Part shown: positions 27,153 to 48,223 of the stretch, one piece after another | Numbering within the stretch: position 1 is the stretch's first letter | Layout: the number at the start of each line of letters is the position of its first letter | From: Gemmiger sp. An120 | GTDB lineage: Bacteria > Bacillota > Clostridia > Oscillospirales > Ruminococcaceae | Direction of reading: 5' to 3' | Assembly: GCF_002160955.1 (NCBI RefSeq) | Contig: NZ_NFLN01000002.1 | Location: forward strand, 248,001 to 312,000 | DNA length: 64,000 nucleotides | Position numbers and translations under genes: made by a program | The notes under the pieces: model-generated | The model's input: only the letters and a program-made list of their open reading frames with translations | Databases searched by the model: none | What the model was told of the DNA's origin: nothing

Positions 27153-27818
27153 TCAATACGCTTCGCCGCCCTGTGCGCCTTCCATGATCTGCACACCGTT
27201 GCTGGTACCCAGGCGGGCGCAGCCCATATCCACGTACATCTGGGCATCCTTGGTAGTGCGGATACCACCGGAGGCTTTCATCTTGGCGGGCTTCTTCAGA
27301 TACTTCTTGAACAGCTCAATGTCATGGGGCTCAGCGCCGCGGGAGCCATAACCGGTGCTGGTCTTGATAAAGTCCGCACCGGTATCCTCTACAATACGGC
27401 ACATGGCAGCAATCTGTTCTTCATTCAGATAGCAGGTCTCAATAATCACCTTGAGCAGCGCGCCGCGGCTGTGGCAGGCCTCCACAAGAGCCGCTACTTC
27501 CGCCTGTACATAGGCTTCGTCGCCGTCCAGAAGGCGTCCCACATTGATGACCATGTCGATCTCATCCGCGCCGTCGGCAAGTGCGCCTTCCGCTTCGGCC
27601 ACCTTGATGGCGGTGGTGTGGGTACCGAACGGGAACCCGATCACACTACAGGTCTTGACGCCGCTGCCGGCCAGCGCTTCATGGACAAGCGCCACGTTGC
27701 AGGGGTTTACGCAGACAGAAGCGAACTGATACTGCCGGGCCTCACTGCATACACGCAGGATGTCTTCTTTCTTGGCAAAGGGTTTCAAGTAGGTGTGGTC
27801 GATATACTGATTCAGCAT
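27153..27818 (-). CDS. deoC: Deoxyribose-phosphate aldolase
   Basis: A 221-residue class I aldolase that cleaves 2-deoxyribose-5-phosphate to glyceraldehyde-3-phosphate and acetaldehyde. The Schiff-base Lys152 is in FIKTSTGYG, the proton-relay Lys181 in KMKASGGIRT, and the Asp of EIDMVINVG is at 86-88. The length is normal for the short bacterial form. The ATG at 27818 (MLNQYIDHTYLKP) has AAGGAG 8 bp upstream. It is monocistronic and 10 kb away from the other nucleoside catabolism genes of this window. A weak promoter (TTGACC 27886-27881, TACGCT 27863-27858) precedes it. Confidence 0.96.
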   Translation of the reverse strand: MLNQYIDHTYLKPFAKKEDILRVCSEARQYQFASVCVNPCNVALVHEALAGSGVKTCSVIGFPFGTHTTAIKVAEAEGALADGADEIDMVINVGRLLDGDEAYVQAEVAALVEACHSRGALLKVIIETCYLNEEQIAAMCRIVEDTGADFIKTSTGYGSRGAEPHDIELFKKYLKKPAKMKASGGIRTTKDAQMYVDMGCARLGTSNGVQIMEGAQGGEAY

Positions 27819-27904
27819 AACAGATTCTCCTTGTTTACAGTTCATGGTCGTATATATAGCGTACCGCCCCGGCGGCATTCGGTCAAGCGTTTTTGCGGAT
27901 TTTG

Positions 27905-29978: not shown

Positions 29979-30485
29979 ATGCCGATGAAGAAAGAGCGTT
30001 TGTACCGTGCAAAACTGCGTTTTCAGCGCGCGGTTTGTTCGCTGGTGCTGACCTGCCTGTCCCGGGCTTTGCGGGGGCTGGAACGGTGTGACAGCCGTGT
30101 GCGCGGTGAGATGGCACAATGGCCGGAAGGGTTTTGTATCAGTATGGAGTTGCCGGGAGGCCCTGCCCTGCGGCTTCGCCACACCAAAAGCAAAGGGCTT
30201 GTTCCGGCTGGCGGCCCGGTACATCCGGACGTGGCAATTCGCTTTAAGAGTGTACAGGATGCGTTTTACCTGTGCACCGGACGCTTGGGTGTTGCGGGGG
30301 CTTACGCACAGCATCGCTTTGTTTTACGCGGGAATGTAAGCAGTGTTATGGGATTTGTGCGTTGTGTGGATATTGCGGAGGGCTATCTGTTTCCTCGCTT
30401 CTGGGCGCGCCGTATTTTAAAAGAGGTTCCCTTCCATGAAGTCCCGGCTGTCCGGGTATATCTGGCCGTTCTGCTGGGCAAATAA
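29979..30485 (+). CDS. SCP2 sterol-carrier-like domain protein
   Basis: A 168-residue protein. Residues about 50-140 resemble the SCP2-like fold: MELPGGPALRLRH, HPDVAIRFKSVQDAFYLCTGRLG and AYAQHRFVLRGNVSSVMGFVRCV. In Clostridia such proteins occur next to iron alcohol dehydrogenases, as here. They are thought to bind hydrophobic ligands, but no function is proven. ATG has GAGGAGG about 7 bp upstream. The dehydrogenase gene starts 19 bp after its stop. Confidence 0.7.
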   Translation: MPMKKERLYRAKLRFQRAVCSLVLTCLSRALRGLERCDSRVRGEMAQWPEGFCISMELPGGPALRLRHTKSKGLVPAGGPVHPDVAIRFKSVQDAFYLCTGRLGVAGAYAQHRFVLRGNVSSVMGFVRCVDIAEGYLFPRFWARRILKEVPFHEVPAVRVYLAVLLGK

Positions 30486-30504
30486 AGAAAGGAGCGGAAG
30501 GAAA

Positions 30505-31689
30505 ATGCCGGAATATTTTGAATTCAAGCTGCCCGCCAAAATTCTGAGCGGTGCTGGCGCTTTGGAGCACATTGCACATGAACTGGAAGGCTTGGGCGCC
30601 CATGCGCCTATGCTGATGAGCGATGCAGGCCTTGTGCGCTTCGGCGTTGCCGGGCAGGTCAAGGCAGCTATGGAGGGCAGCGGCTGCCACCCCGCTGCCG
30701 AATTCTACGATGTGCCCGCTGACTCCTCTATTCAGGTAGTGAACCAGGCAGCAGATCTGTTCCGCCGCAGCGGATGCGACAGTCTGGTGGCCGTGGGTGG
30801 AGGAAGCGTGCTGGATACGGCCAAAGGGGTAGGCATGGTCCTGGCTCAGGGAACCGAGGATCTGCGGCAGAACATGGGCTGCGAAGCGCTGCCCCGCGGG
30901 CAGCATATCCCCTATGTGGCAATACCGACCACTGCCGGCACCGGCAGTGAAGCCACGTTGGTAGCTGTAATTGCCGACCCGGACCGGCAGGTAAAGATGG
31001 AGTTCATCAGCTACCATCTGTTGCCGGATGTAGCGGTGCTTGACCCGCGGATGACCCGAACTCTGCCTCCGCGGGTAACGGCCGCAACCGGGATGGATAC
31101 TCTCTGTCATGCGGTAGAGGCGGCCAGCTGCCTGCAGCGCAATCCCATCAGCGATGCCTTTGCTGAAAAGGCCATTGGGCTGGTTATGGCGCACCTGACC
31201 GACGCCGTGGACGATGGAGACAATCTGGCAGCCCGTCAGGGCATGGCCAATGCCAGCCTGCTGGCGGGGGCGGCGTTCTCTAACAGCATGGTAGGTCTTG
31301 TTCATGCCATTGGGCACGCGCTGGGCGGTGTATGCCGGGTACCGCACGGAGAAGCGATGAATATTCTGCTTCCGGCGGTTATGCGGTACAATCTTCCCAA
31401 ATGCGCCGAGCGATATGGTGAGCTGCTGCTGCCGCTGGCCGGTCCTGAAATCTATGCGGCAACCCCCGCGCCGGAGCGGCCTATGGCCGCTATTCAGGCC
31501 ATTGAAGGTTTGCGCGGCCGTCTGGCTCAGACCTGCAAGCTTCCGGCCCGGCTGCGGGATACCGGCAAAGTACAGGAAAGCGATTTTGATGCCGTGATTG
31601 CCCGCGCCCTGAACGATGGCGCTATCATCGTAAATCCCCGTGAAGCCGGCGCCAATGATATCCGCGCGCTGCTGCAGGAGGTATGGTAA
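30505..31689 (+). CDS. Iron-containing alcohol dehydrogenase
   Basis: A 394-residue group III dehydrogenase that interconverts an alcohol and an aldehyde with NAD(P). The dinucleotide motif is GGGSVLDTAKGVGM (about 97-110). Metal ligands are in DTLCHAVEAA (about 198-207) and in GLVHAIGHALGGVCRVPHGEA (about 268-288), with the expected Asp and three His. Length is typical. ATG at 30505 has GGAAGG upstream. Its TAA shares one base with the next ATG, so it is coupled to the aldehyde dehydrogenase. The natural alcohol is unknown. Confidence 0.93.
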   Translation: MPEYFEFKLPAKILSGAGALEHIAHELEGLGAHAPMLMSDAGLVRFGVAGQVKAAMEGSGCHPAAEFYDVPADSSIQVVNQAADLFRRSGCDSLVAVGGGSVLDTAKGVGMVLAQGTEDLRQNMGCEALPRGQHIPYVAIPTTAGTGSEATLVAVIADPDRQVKMEFISYHLLPDVAVLDPRMTRTLPPRVTAATGMDTLCHAVEAASCLQRNPISDAFAEKAIGLVMAHLTDAVDDGDNLAARQGMANASLLAGAAFSNSMVGLVHAIGHALGGVCRVPHGEAMNILLPAVMRYNLPKCAERYGELLLPLAGPEIYAATPAPERPMAAIQAIEGLRGRLAQTCKLPARLRDTGKVQESDFDAVIARALNDGAIIVNPREAGANDIRALLQEVW

Positions 31690-37309: not shown

Positions 37310-38632
37310 TCAGAACCGTTCCACACCCTCTTCGGTTACACGTGCCATAACCAGTTCAGGAAGGACAGGCTTTTCATCCCGGAAGGTCAGTGCTCCCCGG
37401 TACATCTCCTCAGCCGAAGCAAACTTGCCCTCATCTTCTGCGTAGAAGGTAGCCAGCAGATCACCTTTCTCCACCCGGTCCCCTGCCTTTTTGTGCAGCA
37501 CAATACCGGCAGCGAAATCAATGGTATCTTCTTTCTTGATACGGCCCGCCCCCAGCAGTACACTGGCGTTGCCGATCATTTCGGTGTTGGTAGCATACAG
37601 CCAGCCGCTCTGGTCTGCGCGGATCTCGCGGCTATACTTAGCTTTGGCAAACTTGTCCGGATCGTCCAATACCGAAACATCACCGCCCTGGGCCGCAAAC
37701 ATCTGTTTCAGCTTCTCATAGGCGGCGCCGCTGGCAACTGCTTCTTCCACCATCTTGCGGCACTCCGCCAGAGTACCTTTTCCTGCCAGCAGCAGCATAT
37801 TGGCGGCCAGCTGATAGCACACTTCGGTCAGGTCGGCCGGACCACGTCCTTTCAGTACTTCCACCGACTCGATCACTTCCAGGCTGTTGCCAATATTATA
37901 GCCAAGCGGAGTATCCATGTCGGTAATCAGAGCCGCAACCTTGCGCCCGTTATGGGCACCAATCGCCACCATCGCTTGGGCCAGCTGAATCGAGCCATCC
38001 AATGTTTTCATAAAGGCACCGTTTCCGGTTTTTACATCCAGCAAAATGCAGTCGGAACCAGCCGCCAGCTTTTTGCTCATGATACTGCTGGCAATCAGCG
38101 GTACACAGCCAATAGTGGCCGTTACATCCCGCAGGGCATAGATTTTTTTATCAGCCGGTGCCAGGTTCCCGCTTTGTCCGATTACGCTGATGCCAATGCG
38201 GTTTACCTGATCGAAGAATTCCTGCCGGTCCAGGCTGGTACGGGTACCGGGCACCGATTCCATTTTATCGACGGTGCCGCCGGTATGCCCCAAGCCACGG
38301 CCGCTCATTTTAGCAATTTTGACGCCGCAGGCCGCTACAATAGGTGTAATAACCAGCGTGGTCTTGTCCCCCACACCGCCCGTAGAGTGTTTGTCCACCT
38401 TGATGCCGTGAATGGCGGACAGATCCACCATATCGCCGGAATGTGCCATGATATCAGTAAGCTGTGCGGTTTCCTGATCGGTCATACCACGCAGGTAGAT
38501 GGCCATCAGCAAAGCGCTCATTTGATAATCCGGGATCTGTCCGGACACATATCCGTCGATTACAAATTGAAGTTCTTCCTTGGAAAGGGTCTCTCCGTCG
38601 CGTTTCTTTGCGATAACATCGAACATTCTCAT
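37310..38632 (-). CDS. deoA: Pyrimidine-nucleoside/thymidine phosphorylase
   Basis: A 440-residue enzyme that splits thymidine, deoxyuridine or uridine with phosphate, giving the base and (deoxy)ribose-1-phosphate. It has GRGLGHTGGTVDKMESVPG (about 110-128) with the family signature, the phosphate site KHSTGGVGDKTT (about 80-91), and KLAAGSDCILLDVKTGNGAFMK near 185-205. Length fits Pdp/DeoA (about 435). The ATG at 38632 has GGAGG upstream. It follows the nupQ terminator and is the last gene of the nucleoside region on this strand. Confidence 0.94.
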   Translation of the reverse strand: MRMFDVIAKKRDGETLSKEELQFVIDGYVSGQIPDYQMSALLMAIYLRGMTDQETAQLTDIMAHSGDMVDLSAIHGIKVDKHSTGGVGDKTTLVITPIVAACGVKIAKMSGRGLGHTGGTVDKMESVPGTRTSLDRQEFFDQVNRIGISVIGQSGNLAPADKKIYALRDVTATIGCVPLIASSIMSKKLAAGSDCILLDVKTGNGAFMKTLDGSIQLAQAMVAIGAHNGRKVAALITDMDTPLGYNIGNSLEVIESVEVLKGRGPADLTEVCYQLAANMLLLAGKGTLAECRKMVEEAVASGAAYEKLKQMFAAQGGDVSVLDDPDKFAKAKYSREIRADQSGWLYATNTEMIGNASVLLGAGRIKKEDTIDFAAGIVLHKKAGDRVEKGDLLATFYAEDEGKFASAEEMYRGALTFRDEKPVLPELVMARVTEEGVERF

Positions 38633-38662
38633 ACAGGCCAAGCCTCCTTCAAAAAAACATAA

Positions 38663-38687
38663 GGCCCCCGGAGGGAGTCCGGGGGCC
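38663..38687 (-). terminator. Terminator after nupQ
   Basis: A 10-bp GC-rich perfect stem (38663-38672 with 38678-38687, GGCCCCCGGA and its complement), followed on the minus strand by TTATGTTTTTTT. It lies between nupQ and deoA and should limit, but may not abolish, readthrough to deoA. Confidence 0.87.
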
Positions 38688-38706: not shown

Positions 38707-39654
38707 TTATTTAGCCTGGATATACGGCTTACCGTTAGCGGCCGGAACGCGGGATTTACCCACGAACAGAATCAGCACAATAACAGTGACCACATACGGG
38801 ATCATGGAGATCAGCTGTGCCGACACAGCAGCGTTGCTGGTACCAACCACAACCTTCAAGCCGGAACACATGCCAAACAGCAGGCAGGCAATCATGGCGC
38901 CCTGCGGCCGGAACTTACCAAAGATAACCGCCGCAATGGCAATGAAGCCCTGACCCACGATAGAGGTGGGACGGAACTGGTTCATGGTCGCCATGGTTAC
39001 GCAGGCACCGCCCAGACCGGACAGAAAGCCGGAAATGCAGACCGCGGAAAAACGGGTGCGGGTCACGCTGATACCCAGTGTGGCACAGGTGGCAGGATGC
39101 TCACCGCAGGCCCGCAGCCGCAGACCATAACGGGTCTTATAGAAGATAAACCACACTACGACCAGGACGATAAACACCAGATAGGTGGATGCATACGTAT
39201 TGAAGATGTTTTTGAAGAAATTGCTCCATACCGTTCCGCTGGTGAACACATCGCTGAACAGGAGCGGAATCTTGGCGGTAGGATCCAGGGGCACCGTATC
39301 CGAAGAGTTGAACAAGGCTTTTGCCATCAGAATGGCGACGCCCGGCGCCAGGAAGTTGATTGCCGTACCGGAAATGGTCTGGTCTGCGCCCAGGTTCACG
39401 GTTGCCAGTGCATGCAGTGCACCAAAGGCCAGGCCGGAAAGGCCACCCGCCAGGAAACCGATCCAGGGATTGCCGGTATAATAGGCAACCGTGGCAGAGG
39501 TAAACGCGCCAATGGTCATCATTCCTTCAATGCCGATGTTGACGATACCGCTCAACTCCGAGAAGCAGGAGCCCATGGCGGCAAACAGCAGCGGCGGCGT
39601 ATACAGCAGCGTGGCATACAGGATGATGCCCAGATCATTGATAAAAGCGTCCAT
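38707..39654 (-). CDS. nupQ: Nucleoside ABC transporter permease
   Basis: A 315-residue BPD_transp_2-type membrane subunit with about eight to nine helices. Phrases SGIVNIGIEGMM (about 35-46), GADQTISGTAINFLAPG and LRACGEHPATCATLGISV are characteristic of NupQ/YufQ-type permeases of the BMP-linked nucleoside transporters. It overlaps nupP by one base (TAATG), so is translated in tandem. It is the last gene of the yjjI-yjjW-nupOPQ transcript. Confidence 0.9.
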   Translation of the reverse strand: MDAFINDLGIILYATLLYTPPLLFAAMGSCFSELSGIVNIGIEGMMTIGAFTSATVAYYTGNPWIGFLAGGLSGLAFGALHALATVNLGADQTISGTAINFLAPGVAILMAKALFNSSDTVPLDPTAKIPLLFSDVFTSGTVWSNFFKNIFNTYASTYLVFIVLVVVWFIFYKTRYGLRLRACGEHPATCATLGISVTRTRFSAVCISGFLSGLGGACVTMATMNQFRPTSIVGQGFIAIAAVIFGKFRPQGAMIACLLFGMCSGLKVVVGTSNAAVSAQLISMIPYVVTVIVLILFVGKSRVPAANGKPYIQAK

Positions 39655-40727
39655 TACTGAGCCCCCTCCTTTTTCTTCTTGCTCTTGCGTATACGGGTGA
39701 AGCGGAACACGTGGGAAATGGCGATGAAGAATACCACGGTACCCATGATGATGTTGATTACTTCGGACGGGGCACCGATCAGGTTCAGCTTGCTGCCGCC
39801 GTATTTCAGAGCGCCGTAGAAGATACCGGCAAAGAATACGCCAATGGGATTGGAAGCGCCAATCAGTGCAACACTGATACCCTGGAAGCCGTAGCTTTCC
39901 TGGCTGGTGAAGATACTGATACGGGCACCCATGCCCAGCAGCTGCACGGCACCGCCGATACCGGCCAGAGCGCCGGAAATCGCCATTGCGGTATAGATGT
40001 TGCGGCTTACGTTGATACCGCCGTACTCTGCTGCGTGACGGTTAAAGCCCACAGCTTTGAGCTGATAGCCCAGCGTGGTTTTTTCCAGAATCACATAGAC
40101 CACAACCACAGCTGCCAGTGCAACAAAGATACCCCAGTTCGCGGACGGGCAAAGGGCGTCGCGCCAGGATTCCGGGAACAGAATGCGGGCTGCGTCCTGC
40201 ACGTTTTTGGTAGCTTCCGCGTTGCCGTCGCTGTGAATTATGGAAAAACCGGCAATATAGTTGGACAAATAGTAGGCAATCCAGTTGAACATGATCATGG
40301 AAAGCACTTCGTTAATGCCCCACTTAACCTTCAGGAATGCTACAATCAGTCCCCACAGGCAGCCTGCCACCGCCGCCGCAATGAAGCAGAGCGGGATCAG
40401 GATGATGGACGGTGCCGGAACCAGGATGCCTACAACGCAGGCAGCCATACTGCCAACAACAAACTGGCCCTCAGCACCGATGTTGAACACGCCGGTACGG
40501 AAAGAGAATGCTACCGCAAGGCCGGTGAAAATCAACGGGGTGCCGTACACAACACAGTACGCCATGTTTTTGGGTGTGCTGAAAATGCTGGAAAACAGCT
40601 TGGCATACGCCTCAATGGGGCTGATGCCCATGATTGCCAGGAAGAACGCACCCACCACAAAGGAGATCAGTATGGAGAAGACCGTGATGGCGAGTTTGCT
40701 TTCCAGGGCTTTTTTCACTTTACTCAT
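39654..40727 (-). CDS. nupP: Nucleoside ABC transporter permease
   Basis: A 357-residue membrane subunit. Near the start it has the helix IMGISPIEAYAKLFSSIFST, then TGVFNIGAEGQFVVGSMAA (about 78-96), the NupP counterpart of the NupQ motif, and LKAVGFNRHAAEYGGINVSRN (about 240-260). About nine helices. ATG has GGGAGG 9 bp upstream. It overlaps nupO by 8 bp and nupQ by 1 bp. Together the two permeases form the membrane channel. Confidence 0.92.
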   Translation of the reverse strand: MSKVKKALESKLAITVFSILISFVVGAFFLAIMGISPIEAYAKLFSSIFSTPKNMAYCVVYGTPLIFTGLAVAFSFRTGVFNIGAEGQFVVGSMAACVVGILVPAPSIILIPLCFIAAAVAGCLWGLIVAFLKVKWGINEVLSMIMFNWIAYYLSNYIAGFSIIHSDGNAEATKNVQDAARILFPESWRDALCPSANWGIFVALAAVVVVYVILEKTTLGYQLKAVGFNRHAAEYGGINVSRNIYTAMAISGALAGIGGAVQLLGMGARISIFTSQESYGFQGISVALIGASNPIGVFFAGIFYGALKYGGSKLNLIGAPSEVINIIMGTVVFFIAISHVFRFTRIRKSKKKKEGAQ

Positions 40728-42264
40728 GCTTCTTACCTCCCGCCATCAGCAGGCCCAGGACGTTCTCATCCGCGTCCTTGCCCGGCATACTGCCCGTGAT
40801 GCGTCCTTCGTAGATAACATCAATCCGGTCAGACAGACTGATAATCTCATCCAATTCAAAGGAGACCAGAAGCACGGCTTTGCCCTTATTGCGCTGCTCC
40901 ACAATATAGCGGTGCACATATTCAATTGCGCCTACATCCAGGCCGCGGGTGGGGTTTACTGCAATCAGCAGATCTTTGTCGTTGTTTACCTCGCGGGCGA
41001 TAATAACCTTCTGCTGGTTGCCGCCGGAAAGGGTTCCTGCCGGCTTGACGGCACAATCCCGGGGCCGGATGTCGAATTTTTCAATGCTCTCTTCCGTGAA
41101 TTTGCGGATAGCCGCCTGATCCAGGAATCCATGGTGGGAATACGGCTCGTCAGCAAAATTCTGCAGGATCATATTGTCGGCGACAGAAAACTCCAGCACC
41201 AGGCCATGCTTCTGCCGGTCAGCCGGAATACTGGACACGCCGTTTTCAAAGCCAAAACGTGGAGGCTTGTTGGCCACCTCTACCCCATTGACTGTGATGG
41301 AGCCGCCGGTTGCGCGCCGCAAGCCCGTAATGCATTCCACCAGTTCGGTCTGACCATTTCCGTCAATACCGGCAATGCCCAGGATCTCTCCTCTGCGGAC
41401 TTCCAGATTCAAGCCGCGCAGCGCTTCCAGCTTGCGGTAATCCAGGGCGTGCAGATCTTTAATCTGGAGTACCGGTTCGCCCGGCTCTTTTTCCGGCTTG
41501 TCCACGCTAAAAGTAACGTTTCGGCCCACCATCATGCTGGCCAAGTCGTTTTCCGTTACTTCATCCACGTCCACGGTATTAATGTATTTGCCCATGCGGA
41601 TGATCGTACAGTAATCCGCAGAAGACTTGATTTCTTTCAGTTTGTGCGTAATCAGGATGATGGATTTGCCGTTCGCCGTCAGGCTGTGCATGATATCGAT
41701 CAGTTCCTTGATTTCCTGCGGGGTCAGCGAGGAAGTGGGCTCGTCCAGGATCAGGATATCCACGCCGCGGTACAGCGCTTTCAGGATTTCCACGCGCTGC
41801 TGCATGCCTACCGAAATATCCTCGATGCGGGCATCCGGGTCAACTTCCAGACCGTATTTTTCCGAAATCGCCTTAACGTTTTTGCGCGCAGTTGCCATGT
41901 CCAGGCTGATGCCCTTGCGGGGCTCCATGCCCAGCACAATATTCTCGGTAACGGTAAAGGGCTGTACCAGCATGAAATGCTGATGGACCATGCCGATACC
42001 TGCTTCAATAGCCTTTTTGGGGTTGTCCAGCACAACCTTTTTGCCATTGACAAAAATCTCGCCGGACGTGGGCGGGTACATGCCGTAGAGCTGGTTCATC
42101 AGGGTACTCTTACCGGCACCGTTTTCGCCCAGAATGGCGTGGACCTCCCCTTTGTGCACCGTCAGGTTGATCCCGTCGTTTGCCACGAAATCGCCGAATT
42201 TTTTGGTGATATTCCGCATTTCGATGACCGTGGTGCCAAGGTCAACGTGTCGTTCCTTCGCCAA
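40720..42264 (-). CDS. nupO: Nucleoside ABC transporter ATP-binding protein (two domains)
   Basis: A 514-residue ATPase with two nucleotide-binding domains. The first has Walker A GENGAGKSTLM (about 39-49), signature SVGMQQRVEILKAL and Walker B ILILDEPTSSLTP. The second has GIDGNGQTELVE in place of Walker A and LSGGNQQKVIIAREV as signature, the usual asymmetry of this family. The start is TTG at 42264 with AAGGAGG 8 bp upstream. It pairs with NupP, NupQ and, probably, the BMP lipoprotein encoded 2.7 kb upstream. Confidence 0.93.
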   Translation of the reverse strand: MAKERHVDLGTTVIEMRNITKKFGDFVANDGINLTVHKGEVHAILGENGAGKSTLMNQLYGMYPPTSGEIFVNGKKVVLDNPKKAIEAGIGMVHQHFMLVQPFTVTENIVLGMEPRKGISLDMATARKNVKAISEKYGLEVDPDARIEDISVGMQQRVEILKALYRGVDILILDEPTSSLTPQEIKELIDIMHSLTANGKSIILITHKLKEIKSSADYCTIIRMGKYINTVDVDEVTENDLASMMVGRNVTFSVDKPEKEPGEPVLQIKDLHALDYRKLEALRGLNLEVRRGEILGIAGIDGNGQTELVECITGLRRATGGSITVNGVEVANKPPRFGFENGVSSIPADRQKHGLVLEFSVADNMILQNFADEPYSHHGFLDQAAIRKFTEESIEKFDIRPRDCAVKPAGTLSGGNQQKVIIAREVNNDKDLLIAVNPTRGLDVGAIEYVHRYIVEQRNKGKAVLLVSFELDEIISLSDRIDVIYEGRITGSMPGKDADENVLGLLMAGGKKHE

Positions 42265-42358: not shown

Positions 42359-43198
42359 TTACACTACGACTGCGTTGGGCACCCCGCAGCTTTGAGCCAG
42401 CTGACAAAGATGCGCAAGCAGTTCCCCGGAGGGAGGGGTAAGCCCGCGATATTCCTGCCGGACCCCGAAAGGCCGGTAGCAGATGATTTTATAGCGGGTG
42501 TTGCGCTTTGCAATATGCGGCGCAACTACCCGGCACACTTCCCGCACCGTCTGTTCCGCGTCGAAAAGTTCCGGCACCACCACGGTACGTACTTCTTCCA
42601 GTCTACCCGCCTGCGCCAGCCAGGAAAGGTTCGCCAGCACCTGGCGGTTGTCCTGACCGGTAACCCGCTGATGCTCTGCCGGATCCCAGGCTTTTACATC
42701 CAGCATTACCCCACCGGTAACAGACATCAGTTCCGGATCTGCTGAAAAGTCATAGCTTCCATTGCTGTCCAGCAAGGTATCCAGCCCGGCTTGTCCGGCC
42801 AGCGTAAGGAACTCCACCAGAAAGTCCCGTTGGCGGGTACATTCCCCACCGGATACCGTAATGCCGCGGATAAACGGCTGGTTACGGGAGACTTCTTCCA
42901 TGACCTGCCGGGGTGTCATGCTGCGTACCCGGGGCGAAGCGCTGTGCGGACAGCTTTTAAAGCAGGTATCGCAGTAGACACACAAAGCAGAATCATACCG
43001 AACCTGGCCGTTTTCCAGACAAAGCGCGCCGGTTGGGCATTTATCCACGCAAATGCCGCAGGCACGGCAAAGCTGAATGGTTTCCGGATTGTGGCAGTAT
43101 AAACAGGAAAAATTGCATCCCTGCAGAAAAATGGCGGTGCGGTTTCCGGGGCCGTCCACCGAACTGAACGGGATGATTTTGTTAACCAGCGCCTCCAA
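42359..43198 (-). CDS. yjjW: YjjW-type glycyl radical enzyme activase (radical SAM)
   Basis: A 279-residue radical SAM enzyme that would place the glycyl radical on YjjI. The SAM cluster is C28-x3-C32-x2-C35 in CNFSCLYC. A ferredoxin-like insert carries two more four-cysteine sets (C44, C47, C50, C54 and C73, C76, C79, C83). VSGGECTRQ (about 117-125) is the SAM-binding GGE motif. The start is TTG at 43198, only one base after the yjjI stop; ribosome binding is unclear, so translation is likely coupled. Confidence 0.9.
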   Translation of the reverse strand: MEALVNKIIPFSSVDGPGNRTAIFLQGCNFSCLYCHNPETIQLCRACGICVDKCPTGALCLENGQVRYDSALCVYCDTCFKSCPHSASPRVRSMTPRQVMEEVSRNQPFIRGITVSGGECTRQRDFLVEFLTLAGQAGLDTLLDSNGSYDFSADPELMSVTGGVMLDVKAWDPAEHQRVTGQDNRQVLANLSWLAQAGRLEEVRTVVVPELFDAEQTVREVCRVVAPHIAKRNTRYKIICYRPFGVRQEYRGLTPPSGELLAHLCQLAQSCGVPNAVVV

Positions 43199-43199
43199 A

Positions 43200-44741
43200 T
43201 CAGCGTACCCGTCGATTCAGCGCTTTGCAGTTTGTGGAAGCGCCCAGACCCAGGCCGGTAGTGTTCTGGCGCACATTCTGCCCGGCAGCAAGCTTTTCCA
43301 TCTCGGAACGCTTGACCAGATAACCGGTCACCCGAACCACGTCGCTGTCGCTGTTGTAGAAAGACAGATAGCGGATATCCAGCTGGAATGCCCCACGAAT
43401 CACGTCAAAGACAAACTGGGGATTCTTGTGCACTGTCATGTCCACCGGGAAGATATCGCCGGTTCCGGAGGGGAAATACTTGTGGAACAGGTTGATGTTC
43501 TTCAGGTGATCCACCAGCTCTGCCGGCTCTTCTCCAACCGGAATACGGGTTCCGGGGCTGCTGCCCTTGTCGCTGTCAATACCCACCTGTGCATGCAGCA
43601 GGAAGTGTCCGCCGGTAGCTTCACAATAAGGGGCCTGATGCGCCTGATTGAAAGCGGCAATCTGCTCCATAATCTCTACGCCCAGCGCATCCGCTTCGGC
43701 ACTGTGCCCGAACCGGCCTTCGCGGCCGTCTTTTTCCAGCAGGGTATTCACGCATTCCGCCAGACCAACAAGGCCGAACATCGCGGTAAAGTTTTCACGC
43801 TGGATCAGTCCTTCCCGAACCAGGAAATTGCTTTCAAAGAAGCCGCTTTCCTCCACCAGGAACCGGATGCGGGCATCCATGTACCGGGCCATTACATCCA
43901 TTACATAGGGCAACTGATTCTTTTTGAAATCCTCGATGCCGGAGGAGCGCTTGGCAATGCCATGCAGCAGCAGGCGGCAAAGCGTATACGAGCCGCCCGC
44001 CTTGTACAGGCCATTGTAGCAGCTGGCAATGCAGTAATTATCCCCCAGTTCGCCCCGGAACATTCTGTCATTGGCAAAGCTGGGTTTGGCCGAGCGCAAC
44101 GCGCACTTCACACCGGCAAGCAGGAATTCATCCGGCGTATCCTGGCTGACCCGCATGGTCAGGTTCGGCACAGCATCCTCCAGTTCTGCTTCCACCTCCA
44201 TGATCAGGCGGCCGGCACGGGTATCCGCCGGGCCAATGTCCGCATGGCAGAAGGAATCCAGAATGGTGCGGTCAATCTGGATAAAGAACAGACGCAGCGC
44301 TTTTTTGGCGGTTTCATCATCCACCTGGCTCACATAAGGCTCCAGCAAGGTGTCCAGATCGCCAATATACACCGGATAATTGGTAATGCTGGGTACATTG
44401 TGGTACAGAATCAGCAGGTTGTTAAGCGCCTCCCACAGGTCCTTCGGCACGTCCAGCTGCAAAAACTCACTGCCCTGTTTCAGGAACTTGGGATAGTCCG
44501 GGCAGATATAGCGGGGCCGGTAAGGTGCATCCCCTTCAAACAGATTACAGATACAGCGTTCCGGCTGCGGGCAGCGCATCAGCGCATCGAGCTCTTCCGG
44601 CTCATCAATCACGGTCAAAAAATTCTCGGCATGGCGTGCCAGATAGGTGACCTTTTGTTCGTGAGAAGCGGTTTTGTCCTGGATTGTAGCCAGAATTTCA
44701 CGGCGCTTCTCTTCAACGGTTTCCATGGAAATGGGTCTCAT
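43200..44741 (-). CDS. yjjI: YjjI-family glycyl radical enzyme
   Basis: A 513-residue member of the YjjI (DUF3029) family, whose reaction is not established to my knowledge. The glycyl radical motif is RVTGY with Gly473 near the C-terminus, as in pyruvate formate-lyase-type enzymes (RVxGY). A candidate thiyl cysteine is in NYCIASCYNG (about 242-251). It is far shorter than pyruvate formate-lyase or glycerol dehydratase (about 760-800). ATG at 44741 has GGGAGG 11 bp upstream. It heads a transcript with its activase and the nucleoside transporter. Confidence 0.9.
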   Translation of the reverse strand: MRPISMETVEEKRREILATIQDKTASHEQKVTYLARHAENFLTVIDEPEELDALMRCPQPERCICNLFEGDAPYRPRYICPDYPKFLKQGSEFLQLDVPKDLWEALNNLLILYHNVPSITNYPVYIGDLDTLLEPYVSQVDDETAKKALRLFFIQIDRTILDSFCHADIGPADTRAGRLIMEVEAELEDAVPNLTMRVSQDTPDEFLLAGVKCALRSAKPSFANDRMFRGELGDNYCIASCYNGLYKAGGSYTLCRLLLHGIAKRSSGIEDFKKNQLPYVMDVMARYMDARIRFLVEESGFFESNFLVREGLIQRENFTAMFGLVGLAECVNTLLEKDGREGRFGHSAEADALGVEIMEQIAAFNQAHQAPYCEATGGHFLLHAQVGIDSDKGSSPGTRIPVGEEPAELVDHLKNINLFHKYFPSGTGDIFPVDMTVHKNPQFVFDVIRGAFQLDIRYLSFYNSDSDVVRVTGYLVKRSEMEKLAAGQNVRQNTTGLGLGASTNCKALNRRVR

Positions 44742-44789
44742 CTGCAAGTGTCCTCCCGAATCAACACAAAACAATCTTATGACTTTTCT

Positions 44790-44818
44790 ATTGTACTAAA
44801 AAACAGGAAAAATTTCAA
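44790..44818 (-). promoter_or_regulatory. Sigma-A promoter of yjjI-yjjW-nupOPQ
   Basis: On the minus strand TTGAAA (44818-44813), 17 bp and TACAAT (44795-44790), about 48 bp before the yjjI ATG. Confidence 0.82.
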
Positions 44819-44846: not shown

Positions 44847-44896
44847 CAGCATATTTCACGATATTTATTTGCAAAATGAGCAAAAAAATCACAGAA

Positions 44897-44932
44897 AAAA
44901 GTGCCCGGCACAAAAATGTGCCGGGCACTTTT
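44897..44932 (-). terminator. Terminator after the BMP lipoprotein gene
   Basis: A 16-bp perfect stem (44897-44912 with 44917-44932) followed on the minus strand by TTCTGTGATTTTTTT. It cuts the BMP transcript from yjjI, which then has its own promoter. Confidence 0.92.
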
Positions 44933-44961
44933 CAGATGCTGATTTTTAAAGAGAAAACTCT

Positions 44962-46050
44962 TTACGCAGCTTCCTCAGCCAGGGTGAACAGGCCGCCGCC
45001 CAGTTCTTCCGGAGTGGAAGGAACGGTGATTTCGCCAGCGATGATCTTGGTCTTGGCATCCTCAACCGCCGCGATCACCTCTTCAGGCAGCAGATCGCGG
45101 GTGGGAGCCAGGTCAACGCCGCCGTTCTCCAGGCTGTACAGGTGCACGCCCGGGGTGAAGGTGCCGTTCAGGACAGCCAGAGAGATGTCCTGCGCAGCGG
45201 TATCCACGCGCTTCATAGCGGAGGTGATAACGGTGTTGGGGGCCAGAGAAGACTGGTCGGTGTCAACGCCGATGGCGTAGATGCCTTCGGTGCTGCAGGT
45301 TTCGATAACGCCGTTGCCGGTGCCGCCCGCAGCGTGGAAGATAACGTCAGCGCCCTTGGTGATCATGTCCTTGGCAGCGGTGCCACCGGCAGCGGGATCG
45401 CCGAAGCTGTTGGCATTGTACTGCAGGACAGTAGCGTTCTCGTTGGCAGCCTTGACGCCAGCGATGAAGCCGCAGCCGAACTGGTTCATGGAATCGGAAA
45501 CCATGCCCTGGACATAGCCCACGGTATCGGTCTCGGTCATCATGCCGGCCACGATACCTACCAGGTAGGAAGCCTCAGCCTGAGAGAACATCAGGCAAGC
45601 CACGTTGGGCAGGTCGATGGTAGCGTCGTCGATGATGGCGAACTTCTGATCGGGGTTGGCCTCGGCCGCCTCACGGGTGGCATCCGCCAGCATGTAGCCC
45701 ACGCAGATGATCAGGTCATAGCCCTCGTCCATGAAGGTCTCGATGTTGGACTGATAGTCCGCATCGGTCTTGGACTCCAGGTAGTTGACCTCAATGTTGG
45801 GATACTCAGCGGCCAGAGCCTGCAGGCCTTCCCAGGAGGTCTGGTTGAAGGACTTATCGTTTACGCCGCCCACGTCGGTAACCATGCCGACCTTGATGGA
45901 CTCCAGGGCCTCGCCGCCCTCGGAACCAGCTTCGCTGCCGGCGTTGCTCTGGGAGTTGCCCGCAACGCTGCTGGAACTACCAGTGCTGCCGCAAGCCACC
46001 AGAGACAGAGCCATGACAAGAGCCAGAATCAGAGCAATAATCTTTTTCAT
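44962..46050 (-). CDS. BMP-family nucleoside-binding lipoprotein (PnrA/TmpC-like)
   Basis: A 362-residue lipoprotein. The signal peptide ends at the lipobox LVAC with Cys20, followed by a Ser/Gly-rich linker to about 48. The BMP domain has VGMVTDVGGVNDKSFNQTSWEGL (about 54-76), the family hallmark, plus GVDTDQSSLAPN near 275 and HLYSLENGGVDLAP near 318. BMP proteins of this type bind nucleosides and feed NupOPQ-type transporters. It is separated from nupOPQ by yjjI-yjjW and a terminator but carries a strong own promoter, suiting its need for higher levels. Confidence 0.93.
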   Translation of the reverse strand: MKKIIALILALVMALSLVACGSTGSSSSVAGNSQSNAGSEAGSEGGEALESIKVGMVTDVGGVNDKSFNQTSWEGLQALAAEYPNIEVNYLESKTDADYQSNIETFMDEGYDLIICVGYMLADATREAAEANPDQKFAIIDDATIDLPNVACLMFSQAEASYLVGIVAGMMTETDTVGYVQGMVSDSMNQFGCGFIAGVKAANENATVLQYNANSFGDPAAGGTAAKDMITKGADVIFHAAGGTGNGVIETCSTEGIYAIGVDTDQSSLAPNTVITSAMKRVDTAAQDISLAVLNGTFTPGVHLYSLENGGVDLAPTRDLLPEEVIAAVEDAKTKIIAGEITVPSTPEELGGGLFTLAEEAA

Positions 46051-46258: not shown

Positions 46259-46669
46259 TCAGAGAAGATTGTCGGGGCCAAAACCGACCGGAAGCAGCTC
46301 TCCCAGTGTCATAACCAGGGTATCCTCTTCACTTTTGGCCATAATCACCGGCATATCCGGCCCGCAGAACTCAAACAGCATCTGCCGGCATACGCCGCAG
46401 GGCGCTGCAAAGGAGGTGCATTTCTCCCCTTCTTTCCAGCCCACAACAGCAATCGCCGAAAATTCCCGTGCGCCTTCGCTTACAGCCTTGAACAAAGCGG
46501 TACGCTCGGCGCAGTTGGTGGGACTGTAGCTGGCACACTCAATGTTGCAGCCGGTGAATACGCGCCCGTCTTTGGCAAGAAGCGCTGCGCCCACCTTGAA
46601 ATGCGAATACGGCGTATAGGCATTTTCGCGTGCCGCAATGGCCATGCGAACCAGTTCCCTGTTCTCCAT
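46259..46669 (-). CDS. cdd: Cytidine deaminase
   Basis: A 136-residue tetrameric-type zinc deaminase converting cytidine and deoxycytidine to uridine forms. The zinc ligands are C53 with catalytic E55 in TNCAERT and the pair C91/C94 in PCGVCRQ. FKVGAALLAKDG (about 24-35) is the substrate-side motif. Length is normal for the short form. Its ATG overlaps the deoD stop by one base (TAATG). It supplies the phosphorylase with uridine forms. Confidence 0.96.
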   Translation of the reverse strand: MENRELVRMAIAARENAYTPYSHFKVGAALLAKDGRVFTGCNIECASYSPTNCAERTALFKAVSEGAREFSAIAVVGWKEGEKCTSFAAPCGVCRQMLFEFCGPDMPVIMAKSEEDTLVMTLGELLPVGFGPDNLL

Positions 46670-47388
46670 TACTCCACAGCCCCCAGTGCGATCTTCATCA
46701 TGTTGGTAAAGCTGGTCTGCCGCTCTTCCGCGGTGGTGACACGGCTGTCCACAAAGCTGTCCGAAATGGTGATCAGGCAGGCGGCATTTTTGCCCAGAAC
46801 GTGGGCATTGTGGAACAGGGCAAAGCTTTCCATTTCCACCGCCACGCAGCCCTTCTCATCCCGCAGGGCCTCCCAGTAGGTGGGATTGGTGCGGTCGTCA
46901 TGGCGATAGAAAACATCACTGGAGTGGATAATCCCCTCGATGAGAGGGATATTCAATGCCCGGGCACTGGCCCGCAGACGGTCATTCAGGGTTTCGCTGG
47001 GCAGGATGATGTCGTCGGTGCAGCCGCTCTGGGTACGGGCAAAGCTGCTTTCCGAATAGGCACCGGTGGCCAGGACCACGTCAAAAAGCGCAGCCTTGGG
47101 GGTATACGAGCCCGCCGAACCAATGCGGATGATGTTTTGCACATCATACTGGGTATAGAGTTCGTAGGAGTAAATTCCGATGCTGGGCATGCCCATACCG
47201 CTGCCCATTACACTGACCGGCTTGCCCTGATACGTGCCGGTATACCCGAGCATGCCCCGCACATCATTGAACAGTACGGGATCGGTCAGGAAGGTCTCGG
47301 CGATAAACTTGGCGCGCAGAGGGTCGCCCGGCATCAGAACAGTTGCCGCGATCTGGCCTTTTTCGGCCCGGTTGTGGGGTGTACTCAT
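46669..47388 (-). CDS. deoD: Purine-nucleoside phosphorylase (DeoD type)
   Basis: A 239-residue hexameric-type phosphorylase that splits purine (deoxy)nucleosides with phosphate. It has MPGDPLRAKFIAE (about 19-31, phosphate site), RIGSAGSYTPK (about 88-98) and the catalytic VAVEMESFALFHNA plus ISDSFV (with Asp) near 177-210. The ATG at 47388 (MSTPHNRAEKGQIA) has AAAGGAG upstream; the longer frame to 47541 lies in the phosphatase gene. It is followed at once by cdd. Confidence 0.96.
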   Translation of the reverse strand: MSTPHNRAEKGQIAATVLMPGDPLRAKFIAETFLTDPVLFNDVRGMLGYTGTYQGKPVSVMGSGMGMPSIGIYSYELYTQYDVQNIIRIGSAGSYTPKAALFDVVLATGAYSESSFARTQSGCTDDIILPSETLNDRLRASARALNIPLIEGIIHSSDVFYRHDDRTNPTYWEALRDEKGCVAVEMESFALFHNAHVLGKNAACLITISDSFVDSRVTTAEERQTSFTNMMKIALGAVE

Positions 47389-47443
47389 GGGTAATCTCTC
47401 CTTTGTTGTATAATTGACTGCTGGAGCCCCGGCAAAAGCCGAA

Positions 47444-48223
47444 TCACTCCAGATACATTGTGCGAAGGGTTTGGAGCGCGGCCGCGTCCAGCCCCAGTTC
47501 CGCCTGCAGATAGGCTTCCGGGTTTGGATAGGCACGGTCAATAGCGTCCAGCGCTGTATCCAAATCCTCCATCCGCACCCCCATCAACAGGGCCAGATCA
47601 TCGGCCCGTTCCGGCTGTGCGGCCTGGGCAGCCCGGATCGTGTCTGCCCGCCAGCGGTTGGTGAGAAGATAATCCTGCCGGATCGTCTCCCTGTCTGCAC
47701 CCAGCGCCAGCAGGATGAGCGCGGCCGCCATTCCGGTGCGGTCTTTTCCGGCTGTACAGTGAAACAGAACCGGCACCTCCCCCGCCAGCAGACAGGCAAA
47801 CAGTTTACGGTATGCCGGATTGGCAAAAGGCAATTTCCGATAGATCCGGGGAATACCCTGTTCCAGATAGCGGCGCGCCGCATCATGGCCCTGGGCAGCC
47901 AGTTCCCGGGGATCGAAGTTCACCTCATTGCCGTTTTCATCCAGAATCGCTGAAATCTCATACAAGGTCACCCCGGGAAAAGCAGGATCCGGCAGATAGT
48001 TCCGTTCCGCCGCGGAGCGAAAGTCGAAGATTGTGCGGATGCCCAGGCTCTCAAACAACTGTCTGTCGTGTTCGGACATAAGTTTGGCCGGCGCACCGGA
48101 ACGCCAGAAAATTCCATGCCGCACCCGGCGGCCGTCCCTCACGGGATAACCGCCCAGTTCCCGGAAGTTGTCTGCCCCTTCAAAGGGCAGCGGCGTTCCC
48201 GGTTCGCATTCTTTCTGCTGCAC
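47444..48223 (-). CDS. Tyrosine-type protein phosphatase
   Basis: A 259-residue phosphatase with the active-site loop HCTAGKDRTG (Cx5R), preceded by VLF, and an N-terminal NFRELGGYPVRDGRRVRHGIFWRSG, as in the MptpB/Y_phosphatase3 family of dual-specificity and phosphoinositide phosphatases. No signal peptide is seen, so it acts in the cytoplasm unless exported by other means. Start GTG at 48223 has GGAGG 8 bp upstream; the earlier GTG at 48247 has none. It lies between fbp and deoD. Confidence 0.87.
   Translation of the reverse strand: MQQKECEPGTPLPFEGADNFRELGGYPVRDGRRVRHGIFWRSGAPAKLMSEHDRQLFESLGIRTIFDFRSAAERNYLPDPAFPGVTLYEISAILDENGNEVNFDPRELAAQGHDAARRYLEQGIPRIYRKLPFANPAYRKLFACLLAGEVPVLFHCTAGKDRTGMAAALILLALGADRETIRQDYLLTNRWRADTIRAAQAAQPERADDLALLMGVRMEDLDTALDAIDRAYPNPEAYLQAELGLDAAALQTLRTMYLE

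Follow-up and report, generated by a model that had tools for sequence, protein, structure and literature searches.

Our study examined a 64,000-nucleotide stretch of Gemmiger sp. An120 (contig NZ_NFLN01000002.1, positions 248,001 to 312,000; hereafter, the window), in which two adjoining genes on the minus strand, yjjI and yjjW, almost certainly encode a genuine glycyl radical enzyme and its activase. The pair lies directly before nupO, as the original prediction had stated, and both members are identified by family models over their cut-offs (TIGR04040 and TIGR04041). The substrate of YjjI is probably a nucleoside or a pentose, judging from the company of the gene and the predicted fold of its product. 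As a tentative proposal, the pair would serve in the anaerobic breakdown of imported nucleosides, with YjjI acting as a small reductase-like enzyme whose chemistry resembles that of ribonucleotide reductases (RNRs). The genes at the core of this proposal are the following:

44962..46050, minus strand: BMP/PnrA-like substrate-binding lipoprotein (PF02608, E 5e-78)
43200..44774, minus strand: yjjI, YjjI-family glycyl radical enzyme (TIGR04040, 686 bits, cut-off 498; PF11230, 730 bits)
42359..43198, minus strand: yjjW, radical S-adenosylmethionine (SAM) activase (TIGR04041, 352 bits, cut-off 250)
40720..42264, minus strand: nupO-like ATP-binding cassette ATPase (PF00005, two matched stretches)
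39654..40727, minus strand: nupP-like permease (PF02653)
38707..39654, minus strand: nupQ-like permease (PF02653)

The yjjI open reading frame (ORF) opens at TTG 44774, and its likely start is ATG 44741, which gives a protein of 513 amino acids and is taken as Met 1 in our residue numbering. It is separated from yjjW by 1 bp, and yjjW from nupO by 94 bp. The TIGR04040 match covers model positions 2-497, that is, the whole length. The YjjI family is already catalogued (TIGR04040/PF11230 together with TIGR04041), and the window pair is a member of it, with the same pair order and motifs. In an alignment of 93 sequences from Bacillota, Spirochaetota, Pseudomonadota, Fusobacteriota, and Chloroflexota, the glycyl loop RVTGY with Gly473 and the finger-loop Cys241 (in ASCYNG) are invariant (93/93), so that both the glycine and the candidate cysteine on which the original prediction relied are conserved throughout. 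Cys65 is the second cysteine present in all 93, and further invariant positions are Arg77, Tyr78, Asp130, Asp162, His166, Ser240, Tyr242, Asn243, Arg256, Arg399, and Arg457. Cysteine reaches at least 90% only in columns 65 and 241, and YjjI therefore has no zinc site. For its part, yjjW encodes a CxxxCxxC cluster motif as well as two motifs of the 4Fe-4S ferredoxin type; from the former, YjjW is predicted to form the glycyl radical.

Some members of the family depart from this pattern. Both ferredoxin-type motifs are absent in 10 of 106 YjjW ORFs, and at four loci (L135, L136, L137, and L139) YjjW has only 238 amino acids and lacks both of these C..C..C...C motifs. In the Aeromonas caviae record (L203:7001-8530), a stop falls inside the yjjI match and the gene looks broken, while in the assembly of L048 yjjI is divided into two ORFs (413 and 98 amino acids). 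At L030 no recognised yjjW stands beside yjjI; the next gene encodes a kinase whose best match, below cut-off, is a fructokinase, and a xylulokinase gene (over cut-off) lies close by on the opposite strand.

Structure prediction was carried out, and it yielded a likeness to class III RNR (NrdD) that is absent from the original prediction. The AlphaFold model of the window YjjI (mean pLDDT 92.4, pTM 0.92) is an alpha/beta barrel with Z scores of 24-31 to solved glycyl radical enzymes, and Foldseek ranks 1-22 in the PDB are all NrdD. With VIA-align, the model gives Z 31.3 (root-mean-square deviation 2.6, 470 residues) against P. copri NrdD and 30.9 (2.3, 426 residues) against 1h7b, presumably T4 NrdD; the best non-RNR matches are PflD (8id0), with Z 25.6 (3.0, 457 residues), and pyruvate formate-lyase (PFL), with 24.4 (2.9, 454 residues). 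A second AlphaFold model, of a Treponema YjjI (pLDDT 91.4), gives Z 31.5 against P. copri NrdD, 30.4 against 1h7b, and 26.1 against PflD (8id0), which is the top non-NrdD match in both runs; the two models are of different sequences, and their input alignments share most rows. The substrate-bound structures 8id7 and 8id0 (YbiW and PflD) were among the PDB structures compared. The reactions of these two enzymes were reportedly solved in 2024, and to our knowledge YjjI is the last glycyl radical enzyme of E. coli without a known reaction. The alignment to P. copri NrdD begins at residue 86-87 of that enzyme, whose ATP cone is placed at residues 1-91 (PMC11226230); the fold alignment starts at the end of this cone, and the model predicts no ATP cone in YjjI. 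It is important to consider that a resemblance to NrdD is not new, because a predicted NrdD-like domain had already been listed for the E. coli enzyme in a 2011 resource paper (PMC3228777).

Profile comparisons point in the same direction with a smaller difference. A PDB sequence search with the window YjjI alone gave no match at E 0.01, and a PDB profile search returned NrdD (E 0.0026) and then PFL (E 0.021); by hhalign probability there is a slight preference for NrdD (98.3 versus 98.0 for PFL). In the realigned profile comparison, Cys241 is paired with Cys384 of E. coli NrdD and with Cys419 of PFL.

Compared with the known classes, YjjI is closest in fold to NrdD, with whose thiyl cysteine Cys241 pairs after realignment, and both enzymes end in a GY glycyl loop. 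It is nevertheless shorter than NrdD at 513 amino acids, lacks the ATP cone, has no counterpart in any of the 93 sequences of the zinc cysteines that precede the glycyl loop, carries the extra invariant Cys65, and is encoded beside catabolic rather than DNA-synthesis genes. PFL has the glycyl radical barrel in common with YjjI, and its PNLT and finger-loop segments align, but YjjI is about 250 residues shorter and has Ser240-Cys241 (Ser-Cys in 93/93) instead of the Cys418-Cys419 pair. The fold is likewise common to the sugar-phosphate enzymes PflD and YbiW and to the diol dehydratases. Glycyl radical diol dehydratases carry a Cys-X-Glu finger-loop motif; YjjI is shorter than PflD, YbiW, and the dehydratases and has Cys-Tyr-Asn in its place (93/93). 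Three assignments were rejected: that of a true RNR, given the lack of zinc cysteines and the separate NrdD in the genome; that of PFL-type chemistry, for want of the Cys-Cys pair; and that of a Cys-X-Glu dehydratase, the motif being Cys-Tyr-Asn.

The genomic surroundings of yjjI were surveyed in flanks of up to about 9 kb per side. When 84,980 species, each represented by a single genome, were scanned, at least 539 relatives were confirmed; the nearest named ones are Gemmiger, in keeping with a gut anaerobe of the Bacillota. The best 80 entered the survey; since these lean to the window's kin, an even draw of 398 Bacillota genomes was added, 24 of which, including the window's, contain YjjI. 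The 111 loci obtained gave 104 usable distinct YjjI ORFs, and 86 of them, plus the window's, entered our alignment A2; most of the other 18 were near-duplicates, and they also included one truncated sequence (L139) and one with a ragged start (L147). Among the best 80 of at least 539 relatives, 55 have at least one nucleoside reference gene (or a NupO match above 250 bits) in the flank: NupO was counted at 42 loci, BMP at 40, NupP at 39, NupQ at 38, Cdd at 19, purine phosphorylase at 15, pyrimidine phosphorylase at 12, PsuK, PsuG, and adenosine deaminase at 8 each, and DeoC at 6. In this same best 80, a NupO-type gene stands right after yjjW in 41 cases, and the commonest order, BMP-yjjI-yjjW-nupO-nupP, is found in 30. 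The random Bacillota sample comprises 23 loci, including a fragment below the family cut-off (L148) and a locus on a 5-kb contig (L139); five have nup genes and three have the xanthine phosphoribosyltransferase gene xpt, which is over cut-off at L141, L143, and L146. Reference-set genes occur in none of 20 control stretches, drawn from 20 of the 23 sampled genomes (all except G141, G280, and G296). For nup alone (5/23 versus 0/20) the Fisher p is 0.051, and for nup plus xpt (8/23 versus 0/20) it is 0.004, xpt having been added post hoc.

The association takes different forms. In E. coli and Salmonella, deoCABD lies by yjjI-yjjW, which bears out the original prediction for E. coli; there the pair is divergent from deoCABD, whereas in the window it sits inside the bmp-nupOPQ operon. 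In the group of L135-L137, BMP-nupOPQ is followed by yjjI-yjjW, with extra genes between them at L136 and L137; a wider look found YjjI in 6 of 15 genomes of the L135 group, all already in our set. L140 (5438-10743) carries yjjI-yjjW-mtnA-class II aldolase-DeoR/SorC-type regulator-BMP-nupOPQ, where mtnA passes its cut-off and the other two, aldolase and regulator, are named from best matches that do not reach theirs. Next to its nucleoside importer, this locus would thus carry a set that resembles the dihydroxyacetone phosphate shunt and handles 5'-deoxy- or ribose-1-phosphate sugars; YjjI was present in one of three genomes of the L140 group. In the phylum of a Treponema genome, YjjI occurs in 4 of 149 drawn genomes, with nupPQ at one of these loci. 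Treponema L089 has nupPQ-yjjI, and at Treponema L100, and also at L086, yjjI-yjjW runs straight into psuK-psuG with overlapping genes, an arrangement that may link YjjI-YjjW to pseudouridine breakdown. At six Clostridium loci, psuK-psuG is two to five genes off. For PsuG the evidence is PF04227 together with PDB matches (E 1e-103 and 2e-120) to pseudouridine-5'-phosphate glycosidase; for PsuK it is limited to a PfkB domain and a match to pseudouridine kinase that stays below cut-off. In H. influenzae, a single 3.1-kb region contains YjjI together with a NupC/NupG transporter and a radical SAM protein (PMC5609409). On our 87-protein tree, at least 10 changes (gains or losses) are required to explain the nup label, 9 of them forced by starred branches. 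YjjI was seen in five phyla, and its linkage is found again in several lineages that branch separately, with varied partners and orders.

With regard to the imported compound, the best PDB sequence matches of the BMP lipoprotein are Lbp (E 1e-125), a lipoprotein (6y9u), and TmpC (E 2e-51), all of which we take to be nucleoside receptors. The best NCBIfam scores of the ATPase and both permeases are to 'putative B6 transporter' models, below cut-off, and the assignment of nucleoside specificity therefore depends on the binding protein and the neighbors, which suggest an importer specific for nucleosides.

Given the reductase-like barrel and the repeated placement with nucleoside import and breakdown, YjjI would most likely attack the sugar moiety, either within a nucleoside or after its release as a pentose (phosphate). 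From family and fold, YjjW with SAM would put a radical on Gly473, which would pass it to Cys241 on the finger loop; the Cys241 thiyl would then take a hydrogen from that sugar or pentose (phosphate). Most likely the reaction would proceed as in class III RNR, with loss of a 3'-type hydrogen and elimination of the neighboring substituent, the exact bond being a guess, and the invariant Cys65 is a candidate hydrogen donor. An RNR-like elimination of this kind is a possibility that we advance with reserve. YjjI would not be a DNA-synthesis reductase, because both the ATP cone and the zinc cysteines are missing and the Gemmiger genome, like that of E. coli, carries a separate NrdD, so that YjjI is not needed for DNA precursors. 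A more specific scheme, which we regard as a long shot, makes YjjI a radical enzyme that deoxygenates ribonucleosides or ribose phosphates, turning the imported nucleoside sugar into a deoxy sugar that DeoC would then split into glyceraldehyde 3-phosphate and acetaldehyde. The presence of deoC in all 24 yjjI genomes agrees with this route but does not show it. Our searches of the open-licence literature on YjjI or on nucleoside-linked glycyl radical enzymes found no paper characterising the reaction, in line with the original prediction, which considered it not established. That prediction had proposed a nucleoside, a pentose phosphate, or an aldehyde derived from them as substrate; the nucleoside/pentose class is favored here, whereas the aldehyde option receives indirect support from deoC.

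Several of our results weigh against nucleoside breakdown by RNR-like chemistry. The deoC co-occurrence is not significant (24/24 versus 173/199 in the phylum sample, Fisher p 0.086, the two samples overlapping by several genomes). At 15 of the 23 random Bacillota loci, no reference-set gene is in the flank; no nucleoside neighbor was found by annotation and similarity at the Haliovirga (Fusobacteriota) and Chloroflexota loci, or by similarity at those of Vibrio, Aeromonas, and Proteus. Among the loci sampled outside the Lachnospiraceae/Oscillospiraceae kin, nucleoside linkage is thus a minority pattern, and the repeated linkage claimed in the original prediction, although it recurs beyond the Enterobacteria and the window's lineage and is missing from the controls, is not universal. 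In the fold comparison, T. maritima NrdD scores Z 26.1-29.3 with the window model and 25.3-28.9 with the Treponema model, values that equal or overlap those of the best PFL-type folds; some NrdDs, but not every one, therefore stand clearly ahead. The first profile alignment placed Cys241 three columns off NrdD Cys384, and in both profile alignments Gly473 lies opposite the NrdD zinc segment, leaving the glycyl loops unpaired. An ungapped hand alignment from the common L-x-x-G suggests that Tyr78 is opposite Cys175 of E. coli NrdD and Arg176 of PFL; on this alignment Tyr78 would stand at the position of the NrdD first-strand cysteine (PcNrdD Cys171), and Cys65 falls 13 residues earlier. In T. 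maritima NrdD, a tyrosine beside the first-strand cysteine is poised near O2'/O3' of the substrate ribose (PMC4493059). Finally, fold likeness alone does not show function.

The loci without nucleoside neighbors, both in the random sample and in the lineages just named, are what would be expected if YjjI had a general anaerobic role that is not nucleoside-specific, its linkage being opportunistic or reflecting a shared anaerobic, carbon-source regulon. Regulation speaks for this alternative too: yjjI is activated by FNR in E. coli (PMC2634741), and it is grouped with nitrate-respiration genes, with a proposed role in nitrogen metabolism (PMC3228777). FNR activation, together with the 4.3-fold increase of yjjI seen in Yersinia intermedia when oxygen is absent (PMC3792023), also fits an oxygen-sensitive enzyme. 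We nevertheless consider a general role unlikely, although it deserves serious attention, given that the association repeats with different partner genes and orders, is found in 0/20 control regions, and places a NupO-type gene right after yjjW in 41 of the nearest 80 loci (the best 80 of at least 539). PFL is present in 12 of the 24 yjjI genomes, and formate from PFL is therefore not a need that they share.

Other alternatives concern the chemistry. The mtnA-aldolase route and the deo route both yield aldehydes, and the occurrence of mtnA with a class II aldolase at L140, the recurrence of deo genes near yjjI, and Tyr78 where the hand alignment has Arg176 of PFL would suit a diol-dehydratase-like YjjI. 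Its substrate would be a small molecule formed downstream, whether a free pentose, a free polyol, glycolaldehyde, or a different aldehyde, and not the ribosyl ring on which an RNR-like enzyme would act. We judge this improbable in view of the Cys-Tyr-Asn motif, with no Cys-X-Glu in 93/93, and of a fold closer to NrdD than to the dehydratases. A PFL-type carbon-carbon lyase acting on a 2-oxo acid or an aldehyde could draw on the nearly equal hhalign probabilities, yet the position of the attacking Cys418 is serine in all 93 sequences and the fold Z is lower than for NrdD, which makes such a lyase very improbable. As for a true RNR making DNA precursors from imported nucleosides, the closest fold is in its favor; the window's genome and E. 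coli each have their own NrdD, and YjjI has just two invariant cysteines, no zinc site, and no ATP cone, so we give this explanation hardly any credence. The reading that we prefer, tentatively, is still that of a small reductase-like enzyme for the sugars of imported nucleosides.

Further features of the region are listed here:

46669..47541, minus strand: DeoD-type purine-nucleoside phosphorylase (PRK05819, 271 bits, cut-off 230; domain start at about residue 52)
46259..46669, minus strand: cdd, cytidine deaminase (TIGR01354, 152 bits, cut-off 114)
44896..44933, minus strand: terminator-like hairpin between the BMP gene and yjjI, 17 pairs (hairpin scan)
44790..44818, minus strand: candidate sigma-70 promoter of yjjI-yjjW-nupOPQ, TTGAAA-17 nt-TACAAT (consensus match only)
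38663..38687, minus strand: terminator-like hairpin between nupQ and the pyrimidine-nucleoside phosphorylase gene (hairpin scan)
37310..38641, minus strand: pyrimidine-nucleoside phosphorylase (PRK06078, 587 bits, cut-off 559)
27153..27878, minus strand: deoC, deoxyribose-phosphate aldolase (TIGR00126, 251 bits, cut-off 117)

Along the minus strand, the DeoD-type phosphorylase gene and cdd come first, then the BMP lipoprotein gene, yjjI, and yjjW, and after them the genes for the NupO-like ATPase, the two permeases, and the pyrimidine-nucleoside phosphorylase, with deoC about 9 kb past the end of the last. Of the neighbors originally named, cdd and the deoD-type gene were found, while 'deoA' is better called a pyrimidine-nucleoside phosphorylase gene, its product scoring over the PRK06078 cut-off and below that of TIGR02643 (thymidine phosphorylase). 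The single promoter that had been proposed for the five genes is plausible, with a promoter-like site before yjjI and hairpins at both ends, but it is unproven: the region has 11 promoter-like sites (shuffle mean 6.9, standard deviation 2.8) and 14 terminator-like sites (shuffle mean 11.9, standard deviation 3.9), and the 94-bp gap upstream of nupO could hold a second promoter. Some 2.6 kb separate deoC from an ORF (30436-31689) of the iron-containing alcohol dehydrogenase type, whose NCBIfam matches are all below cut-off; its product could reduce acetaldehyde. An Rfam search of the window found one tRNA and no other RNA family.

What our study adds is a survey of the nucleoside contexts of YjjI and a ranked fold comparison. 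The placement of the gene among nucleoside importers and the reductase-like fold of its product narrow the question of YjjI to a few candidate substrates. If the reading proposed here is true, a radical enzyme for nucleoside sugars would be a new anaerobic route for the use of DNA and RNA in the gut; and if YjjI were a deoxygenase feeding DeoC, this would be a new catabolic radical pathway, in which RNA-derived nucleosides would provide an electron sink for anaerobes.

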